From Dyella halodurans (GTDB lineage Bacteria > Pseudomonadota > Gammaproteobacteria > Xanthomonadales > Rhodanobacteraceae), in contig NZ_JAPDPF010000004.1 in NCBI RefSeq assembly GCF_026283925.1, positions 248,001 to 312,000 of the forward strand: a DNA stretch of 64,000 nt. The letters are read 5' to 3'. The translations under genes were made by a program, and so were the position numbers. Below the pieces are notes generated by a model. The model was not told where the DNA came from and did not search any database. It worked only from the letters and a program-made list of their open reading frames with translations. Of this stretch, positions 21,639-41,653 are shown one piece after another. Within the stretch, counting starts at the first letter, position 1. Each line of letters opens with the position of its first letter.

Positions 21639-23099
21639 TCACTGCGCCTGCGGCGATGGCACACCAGTTGCCGGCACCCCAGCATGGGGCGCCGCATTCG
21701 ATGCCACGGGCGCATTGCCCACCGGCCAGCCGTAGCCGAGCGCCTTGTAGACGTTCACGACCTGGATAAGGCGCAGTCCTTGCAGACTCGACTGCGACAA
21801 CTCGGCATTGAACAGGCTGCGCTCGGCATCGACGACCTCCAGATAGCTGGTGTAGCCACCTTCGTTCAGCGCACGTGACAGCGACGCATACTGGCCCAGT
21901 GCCCTGACCTGCCGATCGACGGCTGCCAACTGTTCTCTTGTTTGTTGTTCGCCCACGAGCGCATCTTCAACATCGGCGAACGCGCTCTGTATGGTTGACT
22001 GATAGGTGAACAGCGCTTCCTGCTGGCGTGCCTCCGCCTGCTTGACCGTACCCGCAATGGCCCCGGCGGTAAAGATCGGCACCGACGCCGCGCCCGCATA
22101 TGACCACAATTTCGCTGGCCCGCTCCATAACGAAGATAGCGCGGTACTCGCCGCACCAAACAAGCCTGTCAGGCTGATGGTCGGAAAATACTGTGCTCGC
22201 GCAGCACCGATCTGCGCGTTCGCCGAAACCAGGGCCTGCTCCGCCTGGCGAATATCGGGGCGCTGGTCCAGCAGCGACGAAGGCAGGCCCGCTGGAATGC
22301 TCGGCACGGCGATCTGATTGATGGGCTTGCCGCGCGGGATCGGCCCCGGGTTCTGACCGAGCAGGAGCGACAACGCGTTTTCCTGCTGGGCAATCTGCTG
22401 CTCGAAGTCGTGCTCCGATGCCAGGGCAACCGCATATTCGGAGTCCGCCTGGCTCACCTGGACCTGTGATACCACACCCCCCTCGAAGCGCTCCTTGTAC
22501 AACTTCAGCGCCTCGGCACGGGTTTCGAGCGTGGCGCGTGAAATCACCAGGCGCTGATCAAGATCGCGCAGGCTGATATAGGCCGTCGCGACACTGGCCT
22601 CCAGTGAGATCAGCGTCGCGTCGCGCGCGTACTCGGTACCTAGCAAGTCGGCGCGGGCGGACTCGCGCAGGCGGCGCAAGCGGCCAAACAAATCGATCTC
22701 CCACGAGGCCATCACGCTCGCCTGCACCTGCGTCGTCTCATACTCCCGCGTCAGGGGCGTGGCCGGTTGCCGCTCGCGGCCACCGGAAAGGCCGGCGGAG
22801 AGCTGCGGATAGAGCGCCGACCGGGTGGTCATCAGGCGGCCGTAATACTCGTCTATCCGCGCCGTAGCGACCAGCAGATCCTTGTTCTGTTCAATCGCCT
22901 GCTGAATCAGCGCGTTCAGCACGGGGTCATTGAACTGGGACCACCAGTCCGCCGTGCTCGCCTGCAGGGCCTGGACATCCGCATAGCGAAAATTGGCAGG
23001 CGTATCGATGGTCGGCCGGTGATAATCGGGCCCGACGGCACAGCCATAAAAGGTCACGCTGCATGCGACCCAGGTCCAGCATAGCCAGGCGCGTCGCAT
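21639..23099 (-). CDS. RND efflux outer membrane factor lipoprotein (NodT/OprM family)
   Basis: The 486-residue product forms the outer membrane channel of the tripartite pump. I start it at the ATG at 23099, one base after the permease stop. The N-terminus is a lipoprotein signal ending Phe-Tyr-Gly-Cys before AVGPDYHRP, the usual start of mature OprM-type proteins. Two repeated coiled-coil OEP segments follow, with QADSEYAVALASEHD and LLDQRPDIRQAEQAL as recognisable family stretches. The tail contains ALGYGWPVG, typical of the family. A Pro/Ala/Gly-rich extension ends the protein. Confidence 0.92.
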   Translation of the reverse strand: MRRAWLCWTWVACSVTFYGCAVGPDYHRPTIDTPANFRYADVQALQASTADWWSQFNDPVLNALIQQAIEQNKDLLVATARIDEYYGRLMTTRSALYPQLSAGLSGGRERQPATPLTREYETTQVQASVMASWEIDLFGRLRRLRESARADLLGTEYARDATLISLEASVATAYISLRDLDQRLVISRATLETRAEALKLYKERFEGGVVSQVQVSQADSEYAVALASEHDFEQQIAQQENALSLLLGQNPGPIPRGKPINQIAVPSIPAGLPSSLLDQRPDIRQAEQALVSANAQIGAARAQYFPTISLTGLFGAASTALSSLWSGPAKLWSYAGAASVPIFTAGAIAGTVKQAEARQQEALFTYQSTIQSAFADVEDALVGEQQTREQLAAVDRQVRALGQYASLSRALNEGGYTSYLEVVDAERSLFNAELSQSSLQGLRLIQVVNVYKALGYGWPVGNAPVASNAAPHAGVPATGVPSPQAQ

Positions 23100-23100
23100 C

Positions 23101-26100: not shown

Positions 26101-26286
26101 GTTTTGCGCGACGATCTCCGAGCTGGCACCCGGATAGGTGGCCGTCACCGTGATCGTGGGCGGCGCGATATCAGGAAACTGCGCGATCGGCAGATTGATC
26201 ATCGCCACCAGGCCGGCAACGACGAGGATGATGGACACGACCGATGCAAAAATCGGCCGGTCAATGAAGAAGTGCGAGAAATTCAT
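23101..26286 (-). CDS. RND multidrug efflux permease (HAE1/AcrB family)
   Basis: The 1061-residue inner membrane pump subunit has the usual 12-helix, two-porter-domain layout and normal AcrB length. Proton-relay aspartates are Asp412 and Asp413 in GIVVDDAIVVIENV, and the partner lysine is in LIALAAKNAILIFEF. The N-terminus FFIDRPIFASVVSIILV and the loop FPTSFLPTEDQGYIF-like segment are standard. The ATG overlaps the stop of the fusion protein by four bases and the outer membrane factor starts one base after its stop. Substrate range cannot be predicted. No local TetR-type repressor accompanies the operon. Confidence 0.95.
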   Translation of the reverse strand: MNFSHFFIDRPIFASVVSIILVVAGLVAMINLPIAQFPDIAPPTITVTATYPGASSEIVAQNVAAPLEQQINGADNMIYMNSTSSSTGNLTITGFFNIGTDPSLAQVDVQNRVNLALPFLPDAVTAQGVSVQKRSSAFMMVIAIYAPDNAFDQPYVANYANVYVLDALKRIPGANQAAIFGSADYAMRIWLKPDRMAKLGITVGDVQQAIASQNQQFSAGRIGQAPTPGPVLQTFPIATKGRMTQPSEFEDIILRGGTGDAAALVRLKDVATAELGSKDYTLRGRFNGKTATLIAVYQQSGANALDVSKKVRATLEELKKSFPPGLDYEVALDTTEFVKDSIGEVVHTLGEAVLLVIIVVYLFLQSFRATLVPILAVPVSIIGTFIGMSALGFSINMLTLFGMVLAIGIVVDDAIVVIENVERNMTEFKLEPKAAAKKAMDEVSGPVIAIVLVLLAVFIPVAFLSGITGQLYKQFAVTIAVSVLLSGVVALTLSPALAAILLKPGSHKKNRFFTWFNTQFDRFTEGYGRAVQLAIKRVVASLLIIAGMIAIMVGLFRHIPTSFLPTEDQGYIFAAVMLPDAASLDRTSDLSKRAEDWFAKQPGVASIAAPVGYSLIDSQYKANAGTLFVTLKSFAERGEGQGAADLIKDSHKAFAAFTEGAVVAVNPPSIPGLGTTGGFEFWLQSTGSGSYQMLEATTRAFIAKAKQRPELRGVNSLINTRSRQLLVEVDRERTESQGVAVQDVYSVLQTMFGSLYVSQFPKSSRLFQVIMQAEPQYRMRPEDLQQLYVRNKNHDMVPIKSMTTSRYVAGADIVTRFNNFPAAKITGDAAPGYSSGQAIAAMEDTAREVLGAGYSYGWSGQAFEEKTAGSTAAAVFAFALGMVFLILAAQYEKWSLPLGVLMAVPFALFGALVGILLRGMENDVYFQIGLTVLIALAAKNAILIFEFAVEMREKEGLNAYDASLHAAKLRLRPIIMTSLAFILGCVPLAIASGASAASRRSLGTGVVFGMLGATVIALLFIPMFFWGLETLSAGKKPAKSAPSGTEPSKPDDDHPSVGQEG

Positions 26287-27854
26287 TGCGCTTCTCTCGA
26301 TGCGGCCGGTTTTGCTTCGGGAACCACCGTAACCTCGACGCGGCGCGCTTCATCCTTGGTTCCCGCGGTGATATCCGCCGGTGGGCGCAGCTCGATCCGG
26401 TCTTCCGCAACGCCGGCCACGAGCAAGGCCGAACGCACGGCCTTCGCGCGAGCGGCGGCCAGCTTGAGATTGGCCTCGGGCGAACCAGACGCGTCGGCGT
26501 AACCCGAGATCACGGCACGGCCCGACGAAGCGCCATGCAGCTGTGCTGCAATGGGCGCAAGCTGCGACGCCGCGTGTTCCGAGATTTGTGCGCTACCGAT
26601 ATCAAAGAGCACCTCGGCCTTCGCCGCGGCGTGCGCCTGCGGGGATGGGGCGCCGGCATGAGCAGGCGTCGTGCTGGCGGCGCTGGGACCACCCTGCTTT
26701 GCGACCGCTGTCGGCGTCGCTGCGGCAGGGAGTTTCGCGGGGTGGGCCTTCACCGCCGCGCCAGGCCCGAGCCGGATAAAGTTATCCACGATGACCTGGT
26801 CCCCGGCATGCAGGCCTGAGTTGACAATCCAGTCAGTGCCGTTCCATTCGCCGGTTTCCACCAGCCGCGGCTGCGCCTTGCCGTCAGCCGTCACCGTCCA
26901 TACGAACGACCCCTGCTCGCCCTGTTGCACGGCTTCTTGCGGGACGGAAATCGCCTTGGTTCGCTCCGCACCCGCAACCTTCACGCGCACGAACTGCCCT
27001 GGTCGCAGGATACCCTCGCGATTTTCAAACACCGCGCGCACGAGATACGTTCCCGTTTCCGTGTTGAGCGCGGCGTCGGAGAACGAGATATGACCACGCT
27101 CCGGAAAGACGCTGCCGTCAGCAAGCACGATTTGCACTTCCAGCAAGCCGCGCGCTGGCAGCTTGAGCGCACCCGAACCGGTTTGATCGCGTAAACGCAA
27201 GACTTCGTTTTCGGAAAGGGAGAAATTCACCCACATGGGGTCCAGCTTCGCCACATAGGTGAGCAAGCTGTTGGTGGCATCGATATACGAGCCATTCTGC
27301 TTCTTGGCAAAGCTCGACAGTCCCGTCACGGGCGAGGTGATGGTGGTGTAGCCGAGATTGAGCTGTGCGCTGATCACATCGGCCCGCGCCTGCTCGACCG
27401 CTGCAGCGGCTGCCTGTTGCTGGCCGGTCGCATCATCAAGATCCTTCTGGCTCAACGCGTTCTTGGCGGCCAGTGGACGGACCCGATTGAGGTTGGCCTG
27501 CGCCGTATCGAGGCGCGCACGCTGTTGGCTGAGTTCGGCTTGCGCGGCATCCAGCGCCGCTTCGAATGGCTTGCTATCCATGCGGAACATCACGTCGCCG
27601 GCATGCACCATGGTGCCTTCCGTATAGATACGCTCCTCCAGAAAACCATTGACGCGCGCGCGTATCTCCACTTGCTGGGAACTTTCGGTCTGCCCCACGA
27701 ATTCATACAGCACCGGGACGTCGCGTAGCGACACGATAAGGACGCCCACTTCGGTGGGTGGGGCGGCAGCGGCTTCAGGCTTGCTTCCGCTGCATGCGCA
27801 TAACCATGCAGACAGGAGCGTCACGGCAACATAGGCAGGTAGTCTGTGCATCAT
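26283..27854 (-). CDS. RND membrane fusion lipoprotein with fused C-terminal OmpA-like domain
   Basis: Residues 1-25 are a lipoprotein signal ending Leu-Cys-Ala-Cys. Residues about 35-370 form an ordinary AcrA-type adaptor: barrel-sandwich halves (EIRARVNGFLEERIY and LGYTTITSPVTGLS), a coiled-coil hairpin between them, then beta-barrel and membrane-proximal parts. Unusually, an Ala/Pro-rich linker (about 370-412) leads to an OmpA-like domain at 413-515. It has a VLFDIGSA start and the motif GYADASGSPEANLKLAAARA. Asp454 and Arg469 match the residues that hold diaminopimelate in OmpA. AcrA is about 400 residues, so roughly 120 residues are extra. I infer that the pump is tied to peptidoglycan by its own adaptor. 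The start is ATGATG at 27854. Confidence 0.9.
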   Translation of the reverse strand: MMHRLPAYVAVTLLSAWLCACSGSKPEAAAAPPTEVGVLIVSLRDVPVLYEFVGQTESSQQVEIRARVNGFLEERIYTEGTMVHAGDVMFRMDSKPFEAALDAAQAELSQQRARLDTAQANLNRVRPLAAKNALSQKDLDDATGQQQAAAAAVEQARADVISAQLNLGYTTITSPVTGLSSFAKKQNGSYIDATNSLLTYVAKLDPMWVNFSLSENEVLRLRDQTGSGALKLPARGLLEVQIVLADGSVFPERGHISFSDAALNTETGTYLVRAVFENREGILRPGQFVRVKVAGAERTKAISVPQEAVQQGEQGSFVWTVTADGKAQPRLVETGEWNGTDWIVNSGLHAGDQVIVDNFIRLGPGAAVKAHPAKLPAAATPTAVAKQGGPSAASTTPAHAGAPSPQAHAAAKAEVLFDIGSAQISEHAASQLAPIAAQLHGASSGRAVISGYADASGSPEANLKLAAARAKAVRSALLVAGVAEDRIELRPPADITAGTKDEARRVEVTVVPEAKPAASREAQ

Positions 27855-28119: not shown

Positions 28120-28150
28120 CTATATCACACCATTCGAGTGACCTTGAGAA

Positions 28151-28164
28151 TCGTAAATTTACTG
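28151..28164. promoter_or_regulatory. AT-rich near-palindrome upstream of SulP, copy 1
   Basis: The sequence TCGTAAATTTACTG contains the perfect 10-base palindrome GTAAATTTAC. Twelve bases, GTAAATTTACTG, recur exactly at 29980-29991 after the same gene. It lies 40 bases before my chosen SulP start. An AT-rich dyad in such GC-rich DNA suggests a regulator site; no regulator can be named. Confidence 0.4.
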
Positions 28165-28203
28165 TCCGACAGCACGTGTCTCCCTGTCCCCGAGCGCCCC
28201 GAA

Positions 28204-29955
28204 ATGGGCGGCCGTATACTCACCACCATGCGAGACGATTCATCGACGCGTACCGTGGGTCGCCACCTTCCGGTGCTGGACTGGATTCGCGACTATCGCA
28301 GCGATTGGATCAAGCCCGACGTTATCGCGGGGATGACCGTTGCGGCCGTCGTCCTCCCGAAGGCCCTGGCGTACGCCACGGTAGCGGGACTGCCCGTGCA
28401 AGTCGGGCTCTATACGTCATTCTTGCCGATGGTGATCTACGCGCTGTTCGGATCCTCACGGCCACTCAGCGTCAGCACCACGGCCACGCTCGCGATCCTT
28501 GCGGGGACGGCTCTTGCCCGGGTGGCGCCGGGAGCCGGCGAGGCGGAGTTGCTGAGAGCCTCGGCGACCTTGACCTTGCTCGTTGGGGCCATGCTCACGC
28601 TCGCCGCGCTCCTGCGCCTGGGCTTTGTGGCGAACTTCATCTCCGATCCTGTGCTGACCGGCTTCAAGGCAGGTATTGCGGTCGTTATCGTGCTCGACCA
28701 GTTGCCGAAGCTGCTCGGCATTCATTTTCCCAAGGGCGGCTTTTTGCACAATGTACTGGCAATTGCCAGCGGTTTTCCTCACGCGTCGCTGGCGACCTTG
28801 ACGGTCGGACTCGCCACCATCGTCATCCTGGTGACGATGGAACACTTTGCGCCCCGCGCACCCACGCCGTTGATTGCCGTGGCTTGCGGAATCGGTGCGG
28901 TGGCCTTGTTTGGCTTGCAGTCGCATGGCGTTGAGATTGTCGGCCACGTGCCCACCGGCCTTCCCTCGCTGACCAGGCCGGACCTGTCACTCATCCAGTC
29001 GCTCTGGCCCGCTGCGGCGGGCATCGCACTCATGAGCTTCACCGAGACGATCGCCTCTGGACGGGCCTTTGTTAAACGCGGGGAGCCTACGCCACAACCT
29101 AATCGGGAATTGGTGGCGACCGGCCTCGCCAACATCGGCGGCGCCTTGTTTGGCTCCATGCCGGCTGGCGGTGGCACCACCCAGACGGCGGTGAACCGGC
29201 TTGTCGGCGCGCGTAGCCAACTGGCCGCACTGGTCACGGCCTCCATGACGCTCGGCACCATGCTGCTGCTGGCCCCTTTTATCGGTCAGATGCCGGAAGC
29301 GACGCTCGCGGCGGTGGTCATCGTGTACTCGCTCGGGCTGATCAAGCCCGCCGAATTTCGCGCCATCATCACCGTGCGGCGCACGGAGTTCATATGGGCC
29401 CTCGTTGCCTGCGCAGGTGTGGTATTGCTCGGCACGTTGCAAGGCATCCTGGTGGCCATCGTCGTCTCGCTCGCAGCACTCGCGCACCAGGTCTCCAACC
29501 CGCCCGTTTATGTGCTGGGGCGCAAACCTAGCACGACGGTCTTCCGCCCTGTTTCCGCGGAACATTCCGGCGACGAGACGTTTCCCGGCCTGCTGCTGCT
29601 CAGGCCCGAAGGGCGCATTTTCTTTGCCAACGCAGGGCTCCTTGGCCAAAGGATCCAGCAGCTGATCAGCGAAGCGGATGCCCGCGTGGTCGTACTGCAT
29701 CTGCGCGCCGTATTCGATCTCGAGTACACCGCGCTGAAGATGATGGTCGAGGCGGAAAGGAAACTCTCGGAGCGGGGCATCGCGCTCTGGCTGGTCGGGC
29801 TTAACCCGGGCGTGCTGGCCATGGTGCAGCGATCGCCGCTGGGCGCAACCCTGGGCAAAGAACGCCTGTTCCACAACCTGGATCAAGCCGTCGCCGCGTG
29901 GCAAGTACAAGGCGCGCAGGGCGCGGCCCCGAGCAGTTCCCGCGACGCACACTGA
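28204..29955 (+). CDS. SulP-family anion transporter with C-terminal STAS domain
   Basis: The product (583 residues from the ATG at 28204) is an inner membrane SLC26/SulP transporter. The N-terminal domain has PDVIAGMTVAAVVLPKALAY, the usual first helix, and about 11-14 hydrophobic segments follow. A cytoplasmic STAS domain occupies roughly the last 120 residues and includes VVLHLRAVFDLEYTALKMM. Substrates in the family include sulfate, bicarbonate and dicarboxylates; which one applies is not visible. The start is uncertain: GTG 28138, ATG 28204 and ATG 28228 are all in frame, none with a strong ribosome site. The palindrome at 28151-28164 argues against the GTG. Confidence 0.88.
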   Translation: MGGRILTTMRDDSSTRTVGRHLPVLDWIRDYRSDWIKPDVIAGMTVAAVVLPKALAYATVAGLPVQVGLYTSFLPMVIYALFGSSRPLSVSTTATLAILAGTALARVAPGAGEAELLRASATLTLLVGAMLTLAALLRLGFVANFISDPVLTGFKAGIAVVIVLDQLPKLLGIHFPKGGFLHNVLAIASGFPHASLATLTVGLATIVILVTMEHFAPRAPTPLIAVACGIGAVALFGLQSHGVEIVGHVPTGLPSLTRPDLSLIQSLWPAAAGIALMSFTETIASGRAFVKRGEPTPQPNRELVATGLANIGGALFGSMPAGGGTTQTAVNRLVGARSQLAALVTASMTLGTMLLLAPFIGQMPEATLAAVVIVYSLGLIKPAEFRAIITVRRTEFIWALVACAGVVLLGTLQGILVAIVVSLAALAHQVSNPPVYVLGRKPSTTVFRPVSAEHSGDETFPGLLLLRPEGRIFFANAGLLGQRIQQLISEADARVVVLHLRAVFDLEYTALKMMVEAERKLSERGIALWLVGLNPGVLAMVQRSPLGATLGKERLFHNLDQAVAAWQVQGAQGAAPSSSRDAH

Positions 29956-30346: not shown

Positions 30347-31678
30347 ATGCCCGGCACCAAGAAAATGACCATGATGCAGCTGACCCTTTTGGTCGCTGTG
30401 AACATGATGGGCTCCGGCATCATTATGCTGCCAGCCAATATGGCCCAAGTCGGCGCCATTTCACTGCTGTCGTGGGGAGTCACGGCGCTCGGATCGATGG
30501 CGATTGCCTACGGGTTTGCCCAGGCAGGCCTGTTCAATCAGCGTATTGGCGGCATGGCCGCGTATGCCGAAGACGCCTATGGAAAAGGCGGCTATTTCCT
30601 GACCTTCTTTCTTTACTTCCTTTCCCTGGCGATCGGCAACGTGGCGATCGCGATTTCCGCTGTTGGCTATCTCGCGGTGTTTTTCCCCGGCATGTCGGTG
30701 ACGCCCATCGCGACCTGCATCAGCGTCATAGGAGTGCTCTGGCTCACCACCATCGCGAACTTCGGTGGACCAAGCATTACCGGTCGCATCGGTTCCGTCA
30801 CGGTGTGGGGCGTGATCATTCCCGTCGCCGGCTTGTCCATCATTGGCTGGTTCTGGTTCAAGGGCGCCACCTTTTCAGCTGCCTGGAATCCCAAAGGGCT
30901 AAGCCTTTTCGAGGGCATCGACTCCAGCATTTCGCTCACGCTATGGGCATTTCTTGGCATGGAGTCTGCAGCACAAAACTCAGACGCCGTCGAGAACCCG
31001 AAGCGCGATGTTCCGCTCGCATGCATGCTTGGGACGCTTGGCGCTGCCGCCGTCTACGTACTGTCAACCACGGTCATCCAGGGCATCGTGCCGAATGCGC
31101 AACTGGCCGAGTCGACCGCGCCGTTCGCGCTCGCCTATTCGGAAATGTTCAACCCCACCATCGGTGCGGTCATCCGGGCACTGGCCATTCTTGCCTGCCT
31201 GGGCTCCCTGCTCGGATGGCAGTTCACCATCGCGCAGACGGCCAAGACAGCTGCCGAAGGGCGGATGTTCCCGAAGTTCTTCGCGAAGACCAACCGCCTC
31301 ACCGCACCGGTGATCGGCATGGTCGTCATGGGCATCGTGCAGAGTGCGTTGGCGTTATCAACGGCGTCCCCAAGCCTGAGCAAGCAGTTTGCGGTGCTGG
31401 TCAACCTCGCCGTCGTCACCAATGTGGTGCCGTACATCATCTCCCTGTCGGCCCTGATGATCATGATGAAAAAGGCCGGGGTTGGCGAACACACTTATCG
31501 GATGAATGCGTTTGTCGTCGCCGTTGCGATGCTTTACAGCACTTATGCCATCTACGCGTCCGGCAAGGAGGCCGTGCTTGGCGGCACGATCGCTATGGCG
31601 CTCACGTTTGTGATCTATGGCTTCCTGGCACCGCGATTCCCGCCGCCGTTGGTGGTCGACGAAGCGCGAACTGCCTGA
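30347..31678 (+). CDS. potE: PotE-type APC antiporter (putrescine/ornithine-like)
   Basis: The 443-residue inner membrane protein has 12 hydrophobic segments and closely resembles E. coli PotE (439). Shared stretches include VNMMGSGIIMLP in helix 1, ANVAIAISAVGY-like NVAIAISAVGYLAVFF, SVTVWGVIIPVAGLSIIGWF and CLGSLLGWQFTIAQ. PotE exchanges ornithine for putrescine; the same or a related amino acid/amine exchange is inferred. A strong GGGGGAGGA ribosome site precedes the ATG. It is the first gene of the decarboxylation module. In E. coli PotE pairs with an ornithine decarboxylase of the same superfamily as the two decarboxylases here. Confidence 0.9.
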   Translation: MPGTKKMTMMQLTLLVAVNMMGSGIIMLPANMAQVGAISLLSWGVTALGSMAIAYGFAQAGLFNQRIGGMAAYAEDAYGKGGYFLTFFLYFLSLAIGNVAIAISAVGYLAVFFPGMSVTPIATCISVIGVLWLTTIANFGGPSITGRIGSVTVWGVIIPVAGLSIIGWFWFKGATFSAAWNPKGLSLFEGIDSSISLTLWAFLGMESAAQNSDAVENPKRDVPLACMLGTLGAAAVYVLSTTVIQGIVPNAQLAESTAPFALAYSEMFNPTIGAVIRALAILACLGSLLGWQFTIAQTAKTAAEGRMFPKFFAKTNRLTAPVIGMVVMGIVQSALALSTASPSLSKQFAVLVNLAVVTNVVPYIISLSALMIMMKKAGVGEHTYRMNAFVVAVAMLYSTYAIYASGKEAVLGGTIAMALTFVIYGFLAPRFPPPLVVDEARTA

Positions 31679-31709
31679 CGCACTGGCAGGCGAAACTGAG
31701 GAGAGGCAC

Positions 31710-32660
31710 ATGCAGATCGCCCGTTTGATGGCAAGCAAAAAATTTACCTGGCCGTTGATCCTGCTGATCGCTGCCGTGATGGCGCCATCGATGCTATTTG
31801 CCCAAACGCAGGCATCGGCAGCGAGCACGCTGGATCGCATCCGCGCAGCGGGAAAGATCACGCTCGGCTACTACGCGAATGCCAGGCCGGTTTCCTTCAA
31901 GGACGACTCCGGCAAGGTCGACGGCTACGCCATTGCCCTCTGTCGCCTGGTCGCAGCAGACGTGCAGTCAAAGCTGGGCCTGTCGAACCTCCCCGTAGAC
32001 TTTGTCGCCGTCGACGCCAACGAGCGTTACAGCGCGGTGAAAGAGGGGCGCGTCGATCTGGTCTGCGGACCGTCCGAGGCGACGCTGGCGCGTCGCGCGG
32101 ACGTCAGCTATTCAATACCTGTACTGAATAGCGGCATCGGCATCCTGGTTCGCCGCGATTCGCCCGCCGCGTTCCGCGACCTGCTGGAAGGTCTGGGAGC
32201 GACCACGCGACCGGTATGGCGCGGGTCGCCGCGACTGCAGGTGCTCGAGGAAAGGCGTTTCGCCGTGATCGGGGGCTCGTCGGCGGAGCGTTTATTGACC
32301 GAACGCAGGGCCGAGCTCAACGTCCATGCTTTCATCACCGTCGTACCCGACCTCGCCACCGGCATTGGTCAAGTGATCAACGGGAGAGCCGATGGCTTCG
32401 TCGCCGATCGCACCGTACTGCTCGACCTGGCCCAGCGTGATCCTTCCGGTAGCCAGGTGATGGTGCTGAATCGAATCTTCGATCGCGAAGCCCTTTCCTT
32501 CGTCCTGAGCCGCAATGACGACGATTTCCGCCTGCTGGTGGATACCACGCTAAGCAGGCTGTACCGCTCGGGAAAGATCGACACCATCTATGCACAGTTT
32601 TTCGGTGCACCGGATGCGGCGATGCGCGACTGGTTCCACGACACGGCGCTGCCGGACTGA
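31710..32660 (+). CDS. Periplasmic amino-acid-binding protein (SBP family 3), no cognate ABC permease nearby
   Basis: The 316-residue protein starts at ATG 31710, behind a good GAGGAGAGG site. An N-terminal signal peptide ends around SMLFAQTQASA. The mature part is a family-3 solute-binding protein, with ITLGYYANARPVSFKDDSG at its start, DGYAIALC, the AVKEGRVDLVCG segment and IDTIYAQFFG at the end. Such proteins bind polar amino acids in the periplasm. No ABC permease or ATPase gene is in the window, so it may feed the flanking antiporters, act as a sensor, or use a permease elsewhere. Substrate is unknown; a basic amino acid would fit the context. Confidence 0.87.
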   Translation: MQIARLMASKKFTWPLILLIAAVMAPSMLFAQTQASAASTLDRIRAAGKITLGYYANARPVSFKDDSGKVDGYAIALCRLVAADVQSKLGLSNLPVDFVAVDANERYSAVKEGRVDLVCGPSEATLARRADVSYSIPVLNSGIGILVRRDSPAAFRDLLEGLGATTRPVWRGSPRLQVLEERRFAVIGGSSAERLLTERRAELNVHAFITVVPDLATGIGQVINGRADGFVADRTVLLDLAQRDPSGSQVMVLNRIFDREALSFVLSRNDDDFRLLVDTTLSRLYRSGKIDTIYAQFFGAPDAAMRDWFHDTALPD

Positions 32661-32666
32661 CGCTCC

Positions 32667-32693
32667 CCGGATCCGCGTGAACACGCGATCCGG
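32667..32693 (+). terminator. Strong hairpin between the binding protein and porin genes
   Basis: Arms CCGGATCCGCGT and ACGCGATCCGG pair over 11 bases with one bulged C, around a GAAC loop. No T-run follows, so this may be a rho-assisted terminator, a processing site or an mRNA-stabilising hairpin rather than a full stop. It begins six bases after the binding protein stop. Confidence 0.5.
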
Positions 32694-32720
32694 ACCATTC
32701 AGATTGGCGAGGATTTGGTG

Positions 32721-34208
32721 ATGCACAAGCGATCGCGTGATCTCTCGGTCCCGAGTTTGCCGACACGCCCCTGGCTCGTGTCGCTAGCCTTCACGTTGTT
32801 GACATGCATGGCAGCGCCAGCAGCGCTGGCGCAATCCACGGATTCATCCGCGGACCTGAAGGCCGAGATTGCGCAGATGCGTCAGCAGATGCAGGCGCAG
32901 CAGCAAGTCATGCAAAAAATGCAGCAGCGCCTGGATGAGCTGGAAGCGAAGGAAGCGGCGAAACCGCAGGCAACCGCGCAAGCGCCCAGCCAACCGGCGA
33001 AGCCACCCGTGGTCACGCCGACGTCCGAGCTCGAGGCCGCCAAGGCCACCCAGTATCACCCGCCGTCGGCGCCGGCCGGTGTGTCCGAGCCGCTGCCCGA
33101 TGGCTATGTCCGCCTCGGCGACACCGGCAACCTGCTCAAGGTCGACCTGGTCGCGCAGGTCGATGCCATGGCAGACAACACCTACATGGGTGCGCAAGAC
33201 CTGTTCGTGCCGTCCTCCATTCCCGTGCGCGGGGCGGCGTTCTACGCCACCGGCTGGCGCTCCAACATGAGCGCGAAGCAAAGCGTGTTCCGCATGGATT
33301 TCCGCCGCGACACCGATTACGGCACCTTGAAGATCGTCTACAAGAACAATTTCTTCGGCAGCGGTACTGGCGACATGCCGTACAACCTGCAGTACTTCTA
33401 TGGCGAGCTGGATAACGAGCGCTTCACCCTGCTGGCCGGCTACAACATTTCGGCCTTTACTGATATCGACGTGTTTCCCAACACCCTCGACTATGAAGGA
33501 CCGAACTCCTTCACCTTCAAATACGGTCCGCAGATCCGCTTCTCGCCGATCCTCTACAAGAGCGGCGACAGCTTGCTGACCTTGCCGCTGTCGATGGAGA
33601 AACCGAACGCCGATATCACCACGGTCGAGGGCTTCAACACGTATTCGCGGCGGCCGGACTTCGTGTTCGGGCTACGTTGGGAAGCGCCTAGCTGGCATAT
33701 CCAGTGGGCCAACCTGTGGCGTGACCTGCGGGTAGAGAGCGCGACAGCGCGCACCCGCGGCACCAACGGCTATGCCACGCAGCTCACCGGCACCACCAAG
33801 CTGTTCGAGCGTGACAGCGTGCAGGGCTGGGTCAGCAATGGGCGGGGGTATGCCAACTTCCTGCAGGACATCTCGGGCCTGGGCCTGGATGCCGCCTTCA
33901 ATACCCAGGGCGACCTGCGGGGGATCCGGGCCCGCGGCTGGGGCGCCGGCTACACCCACGGCTGGAGCAGCGATCTCAGCAGCAGCCTGTCCTACGGCTA
34001 CCTGCGCATCAGCCCGCAATCCAACCTGTTGATCGACCAGACCCTGCCCAAGAGTACGAAGTTCGGGTCGCTCAACCTGGCCTGGCAGTTCAGTGAACGC
34101 GCCATGGTCGGTATCGAATACCTGTGGGGCCAGAACATCGACCTTACCGACGCGCGCGGCCAGGGCCAGCGCATCCAGACGACGCTGCGCTACGACCTGA
34201 ACCCGTAA
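32721..34208 (+). CDS. DcaP-like outer membrane porin with N-terminal coiled coil
   Basis: The 495-residue product starts at ATG 32721, with GGCGAGGA upstream. A signal peptide ends at AAPAALAQ. A short glutamine-rich coiled coil follows (residues about 48-75, MRQQMQAQQQVMQKMQQRLD), then an Ala/Pro linker, then a beta-barrel rich in alternating aromatic strands that ends RIQTTLRYDLNP. This layout matches DcaP-type trimeric porins. DcaP proteins carry small anionic or amphipathic solutes. Its place among decarboxylation genes suggests that it admits amino acids or releases amines, which is inference. Confidence 0.82.
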   Translation: MHKRSRDLSVPSLPTRPWLVSLAFTLLTCMAAPAALAQSTDSSADLKAEIAQMRQQMQAQQQVMQKMQQRLDELEAKEAAKPQATAQAPSQPAKPPVVTPTSELEAAKATQYHPPSAPAGVSEPLPDGYVRLGDTGNLLKVDLVAQVDAMADNTYMGAQDLFVPSSIPVRGAAFYATGWRSNMSAKQSVFRMDFRRDTDYGTLKIVYKNNFFGSGTGDMPYNLQYFYGELDNERFTLLAGYNISAFTDIDVFPNTLDYEGPNSFTFKYGPQIRFSPILYKSGDSLLTLPLSMEKPNADITTVEGFNTYSRRPDFVFGLRWEAPSWHIQWANLWRDLRVESATARTRGTNGYATQLTGTTKLFERDSVQGWVSNGRGYANFLQDISGLGLDAAFNTQGDLRGIRARGWGAGYTHGWSSDLSSSLSYGYLRISPQSNLLIDQTLPKSTKFGSLNLAWQFSERAMVGIEYLWGQNIDLTDARGQGQRIQTTLRYDLNP

Positions 34209-34319
34209 TTGCGGACGACGCCGAACGGCCCACCTCCGCCAGCCATGCGCACGTCGATGACAACCATTTCGTCCCCGCCACGGCACGTCCCGTGAACAAC
34301 AACTTCGAGGTGTGAAGCC

Positions 34320-36635
34320 ATGCTTGAACGTCGCAACCAGCGCCAGAAATTCCGCGTGCTTCTGGCCCACGCCCAAGCGGGAAACCTCGACAGCGCGGGC
34401 GGCCGGGCCTGCCGCACCCTGGCGGAGGAATTCGCCGATCGCAATATCGAAACGGTGATGGCCTCGGCCCTGGAGGATGCACGCGCAACTATCGTCTCGG
34501 ACGCGGCCATCCACGCGATGATGATCGATTGGTCGTTGCCGGATGACAGTGGCAAGTCGCTCGACAACCAGGCGGCCACCAGCCTGATCAAGTTGATCCG
34601 CTCGCGCAACGAGAACGTGCCGATCTTTTTGTTGACCGAGCGCGACAAGGCCAAGACGCTGAATGTCGAACTGGTCGAGGCCATCAACGAACTGGTCTGG
34701 CTGCTCGAGGACGTCGCCACCTTCGTGGGCGGGCGCGTCCAGGCCGCCATGCATGTCTACTTCAGCAACATGTTCGGCCCGCTGACGTCCGCCCTGCAGG
34801 CGTTCAACCAGGTGCACGAATATTCGTGGCATACGCCCGGCCATACCGGCGGCACCGCCTTCCTTAAGCATCCGGCTGGCCGCGCCTTCTACGATTTCTA
34901 CGGCGAGCATGTCTTTCGCACCGACCTTTCCATCAGCGTCGGCGAGCTCGGCTCCCTGCTCGACCATAACGGCCCGATTGGCGATAGCGAGAAATACATT
35001 TCGCGCATCTTCGGCTCGCATCGCAGCTACACCGTGACCAACGGCTCGTCCACCTCCAATCGCATCATCTTCATGGCCTGCGTCGGGCGCGACCAGGTGG
35101 TGCTATGCGACCGCAACTGCCACAAGTCGATCGAGCACGGACTGACCTTGACGGGTGGCATTCCGCAATACCTGGTGCCGTCGCGCAATCGCTACGGCCT
35201 GATCGGGCCGATCTATCCCGAACGCTTCGTCCAGGCCACCCTGCGCAAGGAAATAGCGGCAAATCCTCTGGCCAAGGGTCTCAAGGACAAGAACCCGGTC
35301 TTCATGGTGGTGACCAACTCCACTTATGACGGCCTCTGCTACAACGTCAAGCGCGTGCAGCAAGAGGTGGGCAGCTGGCTGGATCGCGTGCATTGGGACG
35401 AGGCCTGGTACGGCTATGGCCGCTTCAATCCCTTGTACGCCGGGCGCTTGGCCATGCACGGCGAGGCGTCGGAACACGATCCCAAGGGTCCCACGGTGTT
35501 CACCACCCACTCGACCCACAAGTTGCTGGCGGCGTTCTCGCAGGCTTCGTACATCCATATCCGCGACGGCCGCAACCCGATGCCGCATGAGCGCTTCAAT
35601 GAGTCGTTCATGATGCACGGCTCCACCTCGCCGTTCTATCCGATCATCGCCTCCAACGAGATCGCCGCGACCATGATGGATGGCATCAGCGGTATCGCAT
35701 TGACCCGCGAGAGCATCGATGAGGCGGTCACCTTCCGCCAGGTGGTGGGCCGCCTGCGCCGCGACTTCGAGAAGAAGAAAGAGTGGTTCTTCCGCACCTG
35801 GAATCCGGACAAGGTCAAGGACCCGAAGAGCGGCAAGCGCGTCGCCTTCGAAGACGCACCGCAGGAACTGCTGGCCACGGATCCGGACTGCTGGGTGATG
35901 CACCCGGGTGATACCTGGCATGGCTTCGACAAGCTCGAAGACGGCTATTGCATGCTCGACCCGATCAAGGTGTCGGTCCTGACACCCGGCGTCGACGACG
36001 ACGGCTCGCTGGCCAAGACCGGTTTCCCGGCCTCGCTGCTCACGGCCTACCTGGATGCGCGCGGCATCGAAGTGGAGAAGACCAGCGACTTCGCCGTGCT
36101 GTTCCTGTTCTCCATCGGCATCACCAAGGCCAAGTGGAGCACCTTGCTGACGGCCATGCTGGACTTCAAGCGCGATTATGACCGGGACGCCCCGCTGTCG
36201 CGGATCATGCCCTCCCTGGTCAAGAGTCATCCGGATCGCTACGAAGGGCTGGGCCTGCGCGGCCTCGGCGATCAGATGTTCACCGAGCTGAAGAAGGGCG
36301 GCCAGACCGCCCACCTGCAGAAAGCCTATTCGCAGCTGCCCGCGATCAAGATGTCCCCGGCCGATGCGTACCAGTTGCTGATACGCGGGCAAGTGGAAAG
36401 GGTGGCGCTGCCTGATCTTGCGGGACGCATACTCGCCACCAGCATCGTGCCCTATCCTCCGGGCATTCCGATGGTCATGCCGGGTGAGTCGGCCGGCGCG
36501 GCGAATGGGCCACACATCGGCTATCTGAAATCCCTGCAGGGCTGGGACAAGCGCTTCCCCGGGTTTGGCCACGACACCCACGGCGTCGAAGCAGAGGATG
36601 GCGAGTATTACGTGCAATGCCTGAAAACGCCTTGA
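34320..36635 (+). CDS. Orn/Lys/Arg decarboxylase 1 (PLP-dependent, LdcA-like)
   Basis: The 771-residue protein has the class III layout: an N-terminal receiver-like wing domain (about 1-145), the PLP core and a C-terminal domain. Core motifs are YSWHTPGHTGG, ELGSLLDHNGP, NGSSTSNR, DRNCHKS and HWDEAWYGYG (Asp360, which pairs with the pyridine nitrogen). The PLP lysine is Lys401 in HSTHKLLAAFSQASYIH. It is close in layout to Pseudomonas LdcA (751) and E. coli CadA/AdiA. Substrate choice among ornithine, lysine and arginine cannot be settled by eye. Decarboxylation uses a cytosolic proton and makes an amine for export by an antiporter. A GAGGTG site precedes the ATG. Confidence 0.92.
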   Translation: MLERRNQRQKFRVLLAHAQAGNLDSAGGRACRTLAEEFADRNIETVMASALEDARATIVSDAAIHAMMIDWSLPDDSGKSLDNQAATSLIKLIRSRNENVPIFLLTERDKAKTLNVELVEAINELVWLLEDVATFVGGRVQAAMHVYFSNMFGPLTSALQAFNQVHEYSWHTPGHTGGTAFLKHPAGRAFYDFYGEHVFRTDLSISVGELGSLLDHNGPIGDSEKYISRIFGSHRSYTVTNGSSTSNRIIFMACVGRDQVVLCDRNCHKSIEHGLTLTGGIPQYLVPSRNRYGLIGPIYPERFVQATLRKEIAANPLAKGLKDKNPVFMVVTNSTYDGLCYNVKRVQQEVGSWLDRVHWDEAWYGYGRFNPLYAGRLAMHGEASEHDPKGPTVFTTHSTHKLLAAFSQASYIHIRDGRNPMPHERFNESFMMHGSTSPFYPIIASNEIAATMMDGISGIALTRESIDEAVTFRQVVGRLRRDFEKKKEWFFRTWNPDKVKDPKSGKRVAFEDAPQELLATDPDCWVMHPGDTWHGFDKLEDGYCMLDPIKVSVLTPGVDDDGSLAKTGFPASLLTAYLDARGIEVEKTSDFAVLFLFSIGITKAKWSTLLTAMLDFKRDYDRDAPLSRIMPSLVKSHPDRYEGLGLRGLGDQMFTELKKGGQTAHLQKAYSQLPAIKMSPADAYQLLIRGQVERVALPDLAGRILATSIVPYPPGIPMVMPGESAGAANGPHIGYLKSLQGWDKRFPGFGHDTHGVEAEDGEYYVQCLKTP

Positions 36636-36671
36636 TGGCGTGCATGCCCGGCAAGGCAACGCATCGGTCGC

Positions 36672-36693
36672 GCGGTGGCCAAACGGCCGCCGC
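36672..36693 (+). other. Hairpin between the two decarboxylase genes
   Basis: Arms GCGGTGGCC and GGCCGCCGC pair over nine bases (one G-T) around an AAAC loop. It lies in the 117-base gap between the two decarboxylase genes. No T-run follows. It may set the relative amounts of the two messages. Confidence 0.4.
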
Positions 36694-36752
36694 CCGCGAG
36701 GCTTACCCATCGCCGCTTCGCGACGGATCTTCCGCTATCGAGGATAGACATC

Positions 36753-39086
36753 ATGTCGATGAACAATCCCTGGTTGCTTTACATCACGAGCGATCCGCCG
36801 GATGAAGGCTCCGCCTTCCGGCTTGCGCTGGAACGCATCGGCAAGGCCATCCAGGCCCGTGGCATCGAGGTATTGCGCGCACTGACCTGCGAGGATGGAC
36901 TTGCCATTGCGCAAGGCTCAGCCACCTACTCCTGCGTTGCCGTCGACTGGGATCTCGGCGAGACCGCGGAAATGAGCGAAAGCGCGGTGCTGAAGATCAT
37001 CCGCGCGGTGCGAGAGAAATCACTCAGGATTCCGATCTTCCTGCTCAGCCGCGGCTCGACGATCCAGGACATCCCGTTGAGCGTGATCCGCGAGGTGCGT
37101 GAATACGTGAACCTGGTCGGCGAGACGCCGGACTTTCTCGCGCGCCGCATACAGTTCGCCATCGACAATTACCACTCAGACCTGCTTCCGCCTTACTTCA
37201 AGGCGTTGAAGAAGCTGACCGAAGAAGGCACCTACCAGTGGGATGCGCCCGGTCACATGGGCGGCGCCGCCTACCTCAAGCATCCCGCGGGCGCCGAGTT
37301 CCATCACTTTTTTGGCGAAAACATCATGCGCGCGGATATCGGCATCTCCAATGCCGAGCTTGGCTCCTGGCTCGACATCGAAGGTCCACCGGCGGATTCG
37401 CAGCGCATGGCCGCCCGCATCTTCGGCGCCGACTGGACGCTCTACGTGCTTGCCGGATCATCGGCATCCAACCGCATCGTCGTGCAGGCGTCGATCGGCG
37501 CGAACGACATGGTCATCGCCGACCGTAACTGCCACAAGTCGCTCAATCACGCGATGACGCTGTCCGGAGCGCGACCGGTGTATTTTCAGCCGAGCCGCAA
37601 TGGCCTCGGCATGATCGGCCTGATTCCACCCAAGCGCTTCACCAAGGAACACATCCGCTCCCTGATCGCCGCATCCCCGCTGACCGCGGGTGCGAATTCC
37701 AAGGAGCCGGTCTACGCCGTGGTCACCAACCCGACCTACGACGGCATCATGTACAACGTGGACAAGGTGGCGGAATGGCTGGCGGAAAGCGTGCCTCGCG
37801 TCCACTTCGACGAGGCATGGTATGCCTACGGCAAGTTTCACCCTATCTACAAGCATCGCTATGCGATGGGCATCCCGAAAGACATGAAGAACCGCCCGAC
37901 CGTGCTGGCGGTGCAGTCGACGCACAAGATGCTGCCTGCGTTTTCCATGGCTTCCTATATTCACGTAAGCAATAGCAAGCGTGGCGAGCTGGCGTGGTCG
38001 CCACTCAAGGAAGCGTTCATGATGCACGGGACGACGTCGCCGTTCTATCCCTTGATCGCATCGCTGGATATCGCCACGGCGATGATGGACGAGCCTTCCG
38101 GCAGCGCCCTGCTGCGCGAAACCATCGGCTATGCCGTGGAGTTCCGCCAGGCTGTGGCGTCGGTGGCCAAGCGCCTGAAGAAGGATAACGAATGGTTCTT
38201 TTCGTTGTTCCAGCCCGACACGGTCAAGGTCGGCGGCAAGAACGTGGAGTTCTCATCCGCACCGGTGGATGCCCTGGCGAACGATCCCAAATGCTGGACG
38301 CTGCGCGTTGGCGAGTCCTGGCACGGCCTGCCGGATGATGTCGTGGCGAATGATTTCTGCATGCTGGATCCGACCAAGGTCACCATCGTCTGCCCTGGCA
38401 CCGATGCGCAGGGCAAGCTCGCCAAGCGTGGCATTCCAGGGGCGATTCTCAGCAAGTTCCTGGATGCGCGTAGGCAGGCGATTGCCCGCACCGGTGACTA
38501 CACCGTGCTGGTGCTGTTCTCGGTAGGCACCACGCAGGGCAAATGGGGCACCCTGCTCGAGACCCTGCTCGCCTTCAAGCGACTTTACGATCGCGACGCC
38601 AGCCTGGAAGAAGCCTTGCCCGACCTCGTGCAGGCGCATCCCGAGCGCTACCACGGGGTCACGCTGCCGCAGCTGTGCGACGAGATGCACAAGGTCATGA
38701 CGGATCTCGATCTGCAGGCGATGGCCAACGAGGCTGGCGAAGTGCTTTCCGAACAGGTGCTGACGCCGTCCGAGGCTTACCAGAAACTCATCCATGGCGA
38801 CACCGAAGAGATCCGCATTGGTGACCTGCCGGGCCGCCTGGCCGCCTTGATGATCGTGCCGTATCCACCGGGCATTCCCGTGCTGATGCCTGGCGAGCGC
38901 GTCGACGCCAAGGGCGGGCCGATCCTGAAATTCCTGACATCGGTGGAGGAGTACGGCAGGCGTTTCCCCGGTTTTGGCCGCGAAGTCCAAAACGTCCACG
39001 CCGATGCCCAGGGCGATATGTGGGTGCGTGTCATTGTGGAGAAGACGGCGCCCGCCAAGGTAGCCAAGACGCCCAAGAAGAAGTGA
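36753..39086 (+). CDS. Orn/Lys/Arg decarboxylase 2 (PLP-dependent, divergent paralogue)
   Basis: I start this 777-residue protein at the ATG at 36753, behind GAGGAT. It has the same wing, PLP core and C-terminal layout as its upstream neighbour. The PLP lysine is Lys392 in QSTHKMLPAFSMASYIH, and DRNCHKS and HFDEAWYAYG are intact. Several conserved stretches differ: the WHTPGH motif reads WDAPGH, and ELGSLLDHxGP reads ELGSWLDIEGP. These lie near the cofactor and substrate pocket, so a different substrate from decarboxylase 1 is likely. A lysine-rich tail (KVAKTPKKK) ends the protein. The tandem pair looks like an old duplication rather than a recent one. Confidence 0.9.
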   Translation: MSMNNPWLLYITSDPPDEGSAFRLALERIGKAIQARGIEVLRALTCEDGLAIAQGSATYSCVAVDWDLGETAEMSESAVLKIIRAVREKSLRIPIFLLSRGSTIQDIPLSVIREVREYVNLVGETPDFLARRIQFAIDNYHSDLLPPYFKALKKLTEEGTYQWDAPGHMGGAAYLKHPAGAEFHHFFGENIMRADIGISNAELGSWLDIEGPPADSQRMAARIFGADWTLYVLAGSSASNRIVVQASIGANDMVIADRNCHKSLNHAMTLSGARPVYFQPSRNGLGMIGLIPPKRFTKEHIRSLIAASPLTAGANSKEPVYAVVTNPTYDGIMYNVDKVAEWLAESVPRVHFDEAWYAYGKFHPIYKHRYAMGIPKDMKNRPTVLAVQSTHKMLPAFSMASYIHVSNSKRGELAWSPLKEAFMMHGTTSPFYPLIASLDIATAMMDEPSGSALLRETIGYAVEFRQAVASVAKRLKKDNEWFFSLFQPDTVKVGGKNVEFSSAPVDALANDPKCWTLRVGESWHGLPDDVVANDFCMLDPTKVTIVCPGTDAQGKLAKRGIPGAILSKFLDARRQAIARTGDYTVLVLFSVGTTQGKWGTLLETLLAFKRLYDRDASLEEALPDLVQAHPERYHGVTLPQLCDEMHKVMTDLDLQAMANEAGEVLSEQVLTPSEAYQKLIHGDTEEIRIGDLPGRLAALMIVPYPPGIPVLMPGERVDAKGGPILKFLTSVEEYGRRFPGFGREVQNVHADAQGDMWVRVIVEKTAPAKVAKTPKKK

Positions 39087-39252
39087 ACACCGCCGTACCC
39101 GCCATCACGGACGTAACTTGATCGAGACATCGGGCGAGGTTGCCTCGCGCAGGAAGTTGGGGCTCATGGCGTTACCGGAGGCGTGACGCTCGATCCGCTG
39201 CCAGCAGATGCATGAGCGGGAATCTGCACGGAGTACGCAAACGGGAGTAAGC

Positions 39253-40551
39253 ATGGCGGCGCCACAGGCAAAGAAGATGGGTTTGGTCGGTGCATCTTCG
39301 CTCGTCGTGGCGAACATGGTCGGCACGGGCGTGTTCCTGCTTCCTTCCAGCCTGGCCAGCATCGGCAGCATTTCGATCTTTGGCTGGATCATCTCGGCCA
39401 TCGGCGCCAGTGCGCTAGGCCTGGTGTTCGCGCACCTGGGCATGGTCCAGCCACAGGCCGGTGGGCCTTATGCCTATGCGCGCGACCATATGGGACCGTT
39501 CGCGGCGTTCCAGACCAATATGCTCTACTGGGGCGCGAACGTGATCGGCAATGTCGCCATCGCGATATCGGTCACCGGTTACCTGGCGGTGTTCTTTCCG
39601 ATCCTGAAGAGCCCCTGGATGGCGAATGGCTGCACGGCCGCCGTGATCTGGCTCTTTATCTGGCTGAACTCGCGTGGTGCGAAGACGATCGGCGAATTCA
39701 CCAGCATCACCACGATTGCCGGCATCCTGCCGATCGCCTTTGTCGGCGTGCTTGGTTGGCTGTGGTTTAAACCGGAAGTCTTCAGCGCCGGCTGGAATCC
39801 AGGTTCCCTGCCCACGCATTCCGCCGTGGCCCAAAGCGCGTCCATCGCCTTGTGGGCGTTTCTCGGCGTCGAGAGTGCGGCCGTCTCGGCCGGCATCATC
39901 GAGAATCCCAATCGCAACGTACCGTTGGCGACGATTATCGGGCTCGTCATTGCAACAGCGATCTATGTGTCCTGCTGCACGGCCATCATGGGCATACTTC
40001 CCAACGACCAACTGAAGAATTCGGCGGCTCCGTTCGCCGACGCGGCGCGCATCATGCTGGGGCCATGGGCGGCCGAAGTGATCTCGGTGGCCGCCATCCT
40101 GAAGGCGGCCGGCGCCCTCGTTGGCTGGATCCTCATCGTGGCCCAGTCGGCCCAGGCCGCTGCCAGCGACGGCATGTTCGTGCGCCGATTCGCGGTGACC
40201 AACGATCATGGCATGCCCACGCAGAATCTCGTCATCACCGGCCTGCTGATGACAGGACTACTGGTGCTCACAGCATCGCCCTCGATCGCCAAGCAGTTTT
40301 CCATCATCACCAACGCGACCGTGGTCTTGATGGCGCTTCCTTACATCTACTCGGTGATCTCGATGTGGCGCCTCGATCAAACCATCGAGCTGCCGAGGTC
40401 AAGACGGCGGGCACTGCTTATCGCAGGCGTGATCGCATGCTTGTATTGCGTAGGCGTGGTGGTGGGTCAATCCGACCTCCTGGGCCGCCGGGCGCTCCTC
40501 GTCCTGTTGTTGACGGCACCTCTTTATGCGTTGATGAAACGTAAGCCATGA
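39253..40551 (+). CDS. AdiC-like APC antiporter (arginine/agmatine-type)
   Basis: The 432-residue membrane protein begins at ATG 39253, five bases after GGGAG. It resembles E. coli AdiC (445 residues), with GTGVFLLPSSLASIG in helix 1, GGPYAYAR, GVESAAVSAGIIENPNRNVP and PFADAARIMLG all aligning well by eye. AdiC exchanges external arginine for internal agmatine during acid stress. It is more AdiC-like than PotE-like, so the module holds two antiporters of different type to match its two decarboxylases. Which antiporter serves which enzyme is unknown. A convergent hairpin follows at 40563. Confidence 0.88.
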   Translation: MAAPQAKKMGLVGASSLVVANMVGTGVFLLPSSLASIGSISIFGWIISAIGASALGLVFAHLGMVQPQAGGPYAYARDHMGPFAAFQTNMLYWGANVIGNVAIAISVTGYLAVFFPILKSPWMANGCTAAVIWLFIWLNSRGAKTIGEFTSITTIAGILPIAFVGVLGWLWFKPEVFSAGWNPGSLPTHSAVAQSASIALWAFLGVESAAVSAGIIENPNRNVPLATIIGLVIATAIYVSCCTAIMGILPNDQLKNSAAPFADAARIMLGPWAAEVISVAAILKAAGALVGWILIVAQSAQAAASDGMFVRRFAVTNDHGMPTQNLVITGLLMTGLLVLTASPSIAKQFSIITNATVVLMALPYIYSVISMWRLDQTIELPRSRRRALLIAGVIACLYCVGVVVGQSDLLGRRALLVLLLTAPLYALMKRKP

Positions 40552-40562
40552 ACGGCACTCAA

Positions 40563-40597
40563 CGACTCGGGCCACCGCACAGTGGGCACCCGAATCG
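40563..40597. terminator. Bidirectional hairpin between convergent adiC-like and SDR genes
   Basis: Arms CGACTCGGG and CCCGAATCG pair at eight of nine positions, with an inner CCAC/GTGG pairing. The hairpin lies in the 77-base gap between convergent genes, as expected of a shared terminator. No clear T-run is present. Confidence 0.5.
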
Positions 40598-40628
40598 TCC
40601 GGCCATGACCTCTCCGGAGTTGCTTCCC

Positions 40629-41423: not shown

Positions 41424-41566
41424 GGGGAGTTCTCCTGATGAGGTGCGCATGCGCCGTGGCGCTCATGGCAAAGGTGGCGTCACTCCCCGGCGATACAAGC
41501 GGTACGTGGCAACAGGAATATGCTCCGCCCACCGAGTCGCGTCGTTCACGAGCCAGGTGAGAAAAT

Positions 41567-41582: not shown

Positions 41583-41653
41583 GCGCAGCACGGGCGGGCA
41601 TCGTCAGACTGGCGCTCTCCGTTTCTGGCGCCACTGGCCCAGGCATCCTTTTC

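Follow-up and report, generated by a model that had tools for sequence, protein, structure and literature searches.

The 64,000-nucleotide stretch of Dyella halodurans DNA analyzed here (contig NZ_JAPDPF010000004.1, positions 248,001 to 312,000; referred to below as the window) contains, between positions 30347 and 40551, six open reading frames (ORFs), all on the plus strand, which encode in order a PotE-type antiporter, a substrate-binding protein (SBP), a DcaP porin, two pyridoxal phosphate (PLP) decarboxylases (DC1 and DC2) and an AdiC/CadB-like antiporter. A preliminary description of this DNA had recognized six same-strand genes with two types of antiporter, two decarboxylases, an SBP and a DcaP-like porin, and this composition was confirmed by position, Pfam and NCBIfam. 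The run consists of two linked submodules, designated A (DcaP, DC1, DC2 and the last antiporter) and B (PotE and SBP):

30347..31678, + strand, PotE-type APC antiporter (ornithine/putrescine predicted); module B; NCBIfam TIGR04299 and NF007938
31710..32660, + strand, periplasmic family-3 SBP; module B; PF00497, signal peptide as judged by eye
32721..34208, + strand, DcaP-family outer-membrane porin; module A; PF19577
34320..36635, + strand, DC1, PLP decarboxylase of the AdiA clade (arginine predicted); module A
36753..39086, + strand, DC2, second PLP decarboxylase, in a clade of its own (candidate substrates arginine and lysine); module A
39253..40551, + strand, AdiC/CadB-like APC antiporter; module A; in-frame ATG upstream at 39208

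The likely start of the porin is 32721 and that of the last antiporter 39253, both judged by eye, and with the starts chosen the intergenic gaps along the run are 31, 60, 111, 117, and 166 nt. The genes may form an operon. They are flanked by a SulP transporter gene (+) and an SDR gene (−), and family annotation of the window proteins placed no regulator inside the run. Terminator-like sites (8) were no more frequent than chance would give (shuffle mean, 7.5), sigma-70-like sites were absent (0; shuffle mean, 2.9), and Rfam gave no match in window positions 28000 to 42000. Upstream of PotE, a single short conserved patch was detected across 11 sequences (best, 14 of 20 columns).

Conservation was evaluated in 101 related genomes, the window genome (G000) included. 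DC2 was found in 11 of these, namely, 10 of the 20 Dyella genomes searched and one genome of another genus (G037), and in all 11 DcaP, both decarboxylases and the AdiC-like antiporter lie in one run. The SBP (52 to 100% identity) and PotE (81 to 100% identity) were each detected in exactly the same 11 genomes, in every case as adjacent genes. The co-occurrence of SBP and DC2 (11/11 versus 0/90; Fisher, 6e-15) also held within the genus (10/10 versus 0/10; 1e-5), with P values that are optimistic because the genomes are related. Since PotE and the SBP are present in exactly these 11 genomes and module A is present in all of them, the porin and the SBP are conserved with the decarboxylases at the level of gene content, one of the two points on which the preliminary description had made its proposal depend.

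Its expectation of a conserved six-gene order was borne out only in part. All six genes are contiguous in 6 of the 11 genomes (G000, G014, G011, G015, G016, and G037). In four others (G006, G008, G009, and G013), RND-pump genes and the SulP gene, ∼9 to 10 kb, lie between the SBP and DcaP, and in G004 the two modules are on two contigs with ends that fit this arrangement; G004 probably is split by the same block. DC1 precedes DC2 in G000 and G014, and DC2 precedes DC1 in the other nine genomes. The six genes are no obligate unit. Of the integrated route of porin, capture, exchange and decarboxylation that had been proposed, the run of DcaP, DC1, DC2 and one antiporter stands (11/11), but the association of the SBP is with PotE, not with DC1 and DC2. 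An extra antiporter, 61% identical to E. coli AdiC, is encoded between DC2 and DC1 in G008 (L037, 7975 to 9333).

The PotE of module B, a member of the AA_permease_2 family (Pfam), passed the cutoffs of both TIGR04299 (572.9 bits; cutoff, 560) and NF007938 (671.3 bits; cutoff, 409). It is 54.0% identical to E. coli PotE and matched it at 12/12 positions compared, a set that we take to represent the PotE pocket. The SBP matched SBP_bac_3 (PF00497; 80.2 bits; cutoff, 26.4), and a Pfam scan revealed no fused signaling domain; the mean pLDDT of its AlphaFold model was only 49.6.

The pairing of these two genes extends well beyond the relatives, outside of which neighborhoods were read for named loci only. 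Profile searches yielded six further SBPs of at least 252 bits, one among 369 genomes of the class (G439) and five among 398 genomes of the phylum (G498, G706, G578, G814, and G829), and in 6/6 a PotE with 61 to 75% identity to that of the window is encoded directly upstream of the SBP on the same strand. This arrangement holds in 17/17 genomes with the SBP subfamily, across families and beyond the class. The 17 SBP-partnered PotEs group in a single clade (support, 96/86), the sister group of which comprises E. coli PotE and the PotE of G359, a genome in which no SBP match was found. One decarboxylase fragment (L068_2) was misplaced in the antiporter tree, where it formed a long outlier. Weak SBP matches in 11 class genomes (including G186 and G309) and 5 phylum genomes were left out of the neighborhood counts; the weaker homologues in G556 and G749 have no adjacent PotE, and that in G050 (85 bits) adjoins ABC permeases, as expected of an ordinary family member.

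Three of the six further genomes place the pair beside decarboxylases. The order in G439 is outer-membrane barrel, decarboxylase, ornithine decarboxylase (ODC), PotE, SBP, arginine deiminase, and ornithine carbamoyltransferase; the barrel matched Alginate_exp (30.5 bits; cutoff, 25.2), another family than DcaP. In G498 a decarboxylase and an ODC precede PotE and the SBP, with a cation-efflux gene and no porin upstream, and in G706 two decarboxylases precede the pair. G829 also encodes an SBP of the LAO type that exceeded the TIGR01096 cutoff (L208, 11054 to 11854, − strand), on the same strand as PotE and the second SBP and adjoining both.

The usual partners of family-3 SBPs are HEQRo-family ABC permeases, which they supply with substrate. 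No match to this permease family (TIGR01726) was found in 12/12 genomes, comprising the 11 DC2-bearing genomes and G439; 11 of 14 control genomes were positive, as were 2 of 59 family members. The only other PF00497 matches in the window genome are two stretches of one 1488-aa frame, probably a sensor kinase, and further PF00497 frames are also present in a few other Dyella. Because the usual permease family is absent from 12 of the 17 SBP-bearing genomes, including all 11 with DC2, the SBP probably serves PotE in the DC2-bearing genomes.

A candidate enzyme for PotE is encoded outside the run. The third decarboxylase of the window genome is a SpeF-type ODC on another contig; PotE is not next to an ODC there but is in G439 and G498. 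Searching with DC2 gave ODC-type matches in 9/11 DC2-bearing genomes and in 0/90 other relatives. The nine proteins group with SpeF in the tree, and three of them were checked against NCBIfam.

In module A, the porin matched PF19577 (44.8 bits; cutoff, 27), and its AlphaFold model, with a mean pLDDT of only 31.2, shows a predicted helix at residues 42 to 78 and no barrel. Both decarboxylases are full-length OKR_DC_1 proteins of the PLP fold, with N- and C-terminal domains and the PLP lysine retained. DC1 is 49.6% identical to E. coli AdiA, with which it clades (SH-aLRT, 100), and scored 994.3 bits with the NCBIfam arginine decarboxylase model, short of the cutoff of 1167; arginine is its likely substrate. 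DC2 (39.1% identity to AdiA and 36.5% to CadA) falls in a clade of its own with proteins of Acidobacteria, methanogens, and an Alcaligenes, with arginine and lysine as candidate substrates. The tree was built by a quick method from 81 of 91 rows (10 omitted for thinning) with long branches flagged, and the row sets for the trees took in 13 of the 80 named DC2-like loci described below. The last antiporter, also of the AA_permease_2 family, is 41.2% identical to E. coli AdiC and 36.9% identical to CadB. Because it scored below the NCBIfam AdiC cutoff (440 bits; cutoff, 574) and has a CadB-like Asn at AdiC position 97, where AdiC has Cys97, arginine is not assured as its substrate.

DcaP homologues (E ≤ 1e-20) numbered 31 in the 101 relatives, and their neighborhoods comprised the window and 30 fetched stretches. 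An AdiC-like antiporter shares a run with 22 of the 31 (directly adjacent in 11), and a full-length OKR decarboxylase with at least 40% identity to DC1 or DC2 shares one with 16. Five of those 16 (G028, G037:C4, G072, G081, and G096) represent a more distant trio of DcaP, antiporter and decarboxylase. At the 15 loci with this distant decarboxylase type, an APC antiporter lies beside 14 and DcaP beside 5. In G007, a remote decarboxylase (27% identity; 953-aa ORF) lies one gene away from a distant DcaP (L085, 4438 to 10554), and in G002 the antiporter beside a distant-type decarboxylase is broken into two pieces (L054, 11758 to 13037).

An alignment-based search of contigs provided further named DC2-like loci, the best 80 of 102 relatives. 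Among these 80, DC2 was found at 77 to 80% identity in D. jiangningensis, D. japonica, D. solisilvae, D. amyloliquefaciens, D. silvae, and D. sp. EPa41, and DC2 relatives with 54 to 57% identity (60% in one fragment) were present in Acidobacteriaceae. Within the class-level sample, DcaP homologues (E ≤ 1e-12) were present in 8/369 genomes and DC1 homologues (E ≤ 1e-20) in 36/369; outside the order, the two occurred together only in G445, ∼0.7 Mb apart. A heuristic for outer-membrane proteins flagged two ORFs at 20 class-level decarboxylase loci, one being the G439 barrel and the other, in L176, a 660-aa ORF that was judged spurious; since the heuristic missed DcaP itself in control loci, the 18 loci without a match say nothing on porins. 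Methanotrichaceae archaea (L157, L160, and L161) encode DC1-like and DC2-like decarboxylases 1 to 2 kb apart, and in Alcaligenes endophyticus (L164, 8453 to 13760) a DC2-like decarboxylase has on each side a basic amino acid/polyamine antiporter that exceeded the TIGR00905 cutoff.

The preliminary description held that known acid-resistance loci contain only an enzyme and an antiporter, sometimes with a regulator. This was mistaken. The chlamydial aaxABC cluster comprises an outer-membrane porin, a decarboxylase and an antiporter that are cotranscribed in C. trachomatis L2, with the aaxA porin described as stimulating the C. pneumoniae arginine:agmatine exchange system (PMC2720952). As in that cluster, porin, decarboxylase and antiporter are linked here, in 11/11 DC2-bearing genomes. 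In the chlamydial system, aaxB is a pyruvoyl enzyme and the cluster has one enzyme, one antiporter and no SBP, whereas both enzymes here have the PLP fold of OKR_DC_1 and the locus has two enzymes, two antiporters and one SBP.

The E. coli loci adiA-adiY-adiC, cadBA, and speF-potE share their enzyme and antiporter families with the Dyella run, but no porin or SBP is annotated in the E. coli stretches fetched, and the regulators adiY and cadC and the leader speFL have no regulator as counterpart inside the Dyella run. In comparison with the AdiA/AdiC system, DC1 falls in the AdiA clade and both curated cutoffs were missed. The SBP shares PF00497 with the polar amino acid ABC importers of the HisJ/LAO type, the permease family of which has no match in the window genome. 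TRAP transporters likewise combine a secondary carrier with a periplasmic SBP on which it depends (PMC9971032), a dependence that is a proposal for the locus here; unlike in TRAP systems, the SBP belongs to ABC family 3 and its proposed carrier is an antiporter of the APC type. The carrier next to the SBP is an APC permease in place of DctQ/DctM-type subunits, for which the rest of the genome was not searched. The DcaP porins of Acinetobacter also belong to PF19577, the expected structure of DcaP porins being a 16-strand trimeric barrel with an N-terminal coiled coil; a preprint links them to growth on carboxylic acids (PMC12338516), whereas the linkage here is to decarboxylases and antiporters.

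We propose that the run comprises two linked amino acid/amine exchange modules, an aaxABC-like module A and a module B in which an SBP assists PotE, and consider the chance that this is correct to be about even. In module A, the DcaP-like porin would admit a cationic amino acid to the periplasm, the AdiC/CadB-like antiporter would exchange the amino acid for its amine, and DC1 (likely with arginine) and DC2 (with arginine or lysine) would carry out the decarboxylation inside the cell, consuming protons. Module A would follow chlamydial aaxABC in its design while consisting of other protein families; we assume AaxA to belong to a family other than DcaP. In module B, PotE would probably take in ornithine and release putrescine, the dedicated SBP would probably capture ornithine (or its product) on behalf of PotE, in the way that TRAP carriers are served by SBPs, and the likely enzyme would be the SpeF-type ODC encoded elsewhere in the genome. 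To our knowledge, antiporters of the AdiC/PotE kind are taken to pick up their periplasmic substrates unaided. More specifically, PotE and the SBP may constitute a binding-protein-assisted APC antiporter, in which a family-3 SBP acts as receptor, on the periplasmic side, for an exchanger of ornithine and putrescine. In Dyella this pair would be coupled to a decarboxylation module supplied by a porin, and handling of the substrate would begin at the outer membrane and proceed inward. This suggestion is tentative, and we put its chance somewhat short of even.

Several observations weigh against this proposal. The SBP scored 78.7 bits with the LAO-binding model, far short of the cutoff of 256, and the Arg that usually binds the ligand α-carboxylate in family-3 SBPs, the position of which we assume, is not conserved across the SBP subfamily. 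In G578, G814, and G829, the 18 to 19 kb fetched with PotE and the SBP include no decarboxylase gene. The TIGR01726 permease family is present in these three genomes and in G498 and G706, so that its absence is no argument in those five, and two more PF00497 frames stand alone in G439. The ODC search with DC2 found none in G006 and G009 (2/11). As to module A, a close DcaP is encoded without a decarboxylase in the 16 to 17 kb fetched from nine other Dyella, with AdiC beside it in six and not in three. The 20 class-level decarboxylase loci gave a DcaP match at none, an SBP match at one (G439), and a window-type antiporter at three, and in the flanks fetched for the Acidobacteriaceae relatives of DC2, some of them short, nothing matched the porin, the SBP or the two antiporters. 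Two sources add that adc genes lack conserved surroundings, which complicates functional prediction (PMC8983666), and that Acinetobacter DcaP is tied to carboxylic acids, a triple mutant having outgrown the wild type largely on amino acids and their derivatives (PMC12338516, preprint).

It is conceivable, though rather unlikely, that the function of the locus is not acid resistance but the catabolism of arginine/ornithine or the release of polyamines. The arginine deiminase and ornithine carbamoyltransferase genes directly downstream of the SBP in G439 would suit such a function, as would the separation of the Acidobacteriaceae DC2 relatives from transporters of this kind; but the acid-inducible E. 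coli enzymes of the same fold serve acid resistance with dedicated antiporters (PMC8503589).

A single acid-resistance route in which all six parts act between the outer membrane and the cytoplasm, which would account for the presence of all six genes in 11/11 genomes and for their contiguity on one strand in 6/11, seems improbable. In its favor, one strand run of G439 independently brings together two decarboxylases, PotE, the SBP and a barrel that belongs to another family. However, two types of antiporter suggest at least two substrates, the likely enzyme of PotE lies outside the run, the run is split in 4 to 5 of the 11 genomes, PotE and SBP lack a decarboxylase in 3/17, and the acid role is itself presumptive. 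There is a similarly small chance of an island of independent stress and transport genes in which porin, SBP, RND pump, and SulP are mere neighbors with no common biochemical route. The pump and SulP do lie on different sides of the locus among genomes, the order of DC1 and DC2 is swapped in G000 and G014 relative to the other nine, and DcaP occurs without the decarboxylases in nine other Dyella; mere neighborhood is difficult to reconcile with a PotE-SBP pairing in 17/17 genomes across families and beyond the class, with a module A kept together in 11/11, or with the distant trio in five genomes. Least probable is that the SBP is a sensor, a scavenger or a cyclohexadienyl dehydratase-like enzyme merely coregulated with PotE, as its top PDB match by sequence (AncCDT-1, a reconstructed ancestor of cyclohexadienyl dehydratase, which we take to be a binding protein rather than an enzyme and count against an enzymatic role) and the lack of the presumed canonical ligand Arg might suggest, given that it has no fused signaling domain and is strictly linked to PotE and coinherited with it in a single clade.

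Two neighboring sets of genes travel with the locus, SulP not being claimed as part of the mechanism:

28138..29955, + strand, SulP/STAS transporter
21639..27854, − strand, RND efflux genes (outer-membrane factor, pump, and adaptor)

SulP is at the locus in 7/11 DC2-bearing genomes. RND pump and SulP genes (window positions 21639 to 29955) lie upstream of the decarboxylase locus here and in G014 and between the SBP and DcaP in four other genomes. The RND adaptor (26283 to 27854, − strand) has a C-terminal OmpA-type domain (PF00691; 51.3 bits), to which the G008 orthologue (L069) gave no match. Farther away, a 2884-aa ORF (12498 to 21152, − strand) has GH94 and putative glucoamylase domains and is presumably cyclic-glucan-synthase-like, and one region at 41654 to 55634 (+ strand) contains NnrS, a cytochrome c-FTR1 fusion, a COX1-type oxidase, a P-type ATPase, and NorB-like genes.

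The pairing of an SBP with an antiporter is the most novel part of this locus; a porin with a decarboxylase and an antiporter has precedent. Among the titles listed in searches of the open literature, none pointed to an SBP paired with an antiporter of the AdiC/PotE type, and no report of arginine decarboxylase in Dyella was found in the open literature. If PotE is indeed assisted by the SBP, it would represent, after TRAP and TTT, a third type of secondary transport with SBP assistance, perhaps giving directionality, and SBP-dependent secondary transport would extend to the APC superfamily. Service of PotE by the SBP would also point to a means of collecting ornithine, which is likely to be scarce in the extracellular environment, and the link to the porin suggests a recurrence of the aaxABC plan, carried out by different proteins, among free-living soil bacteria.

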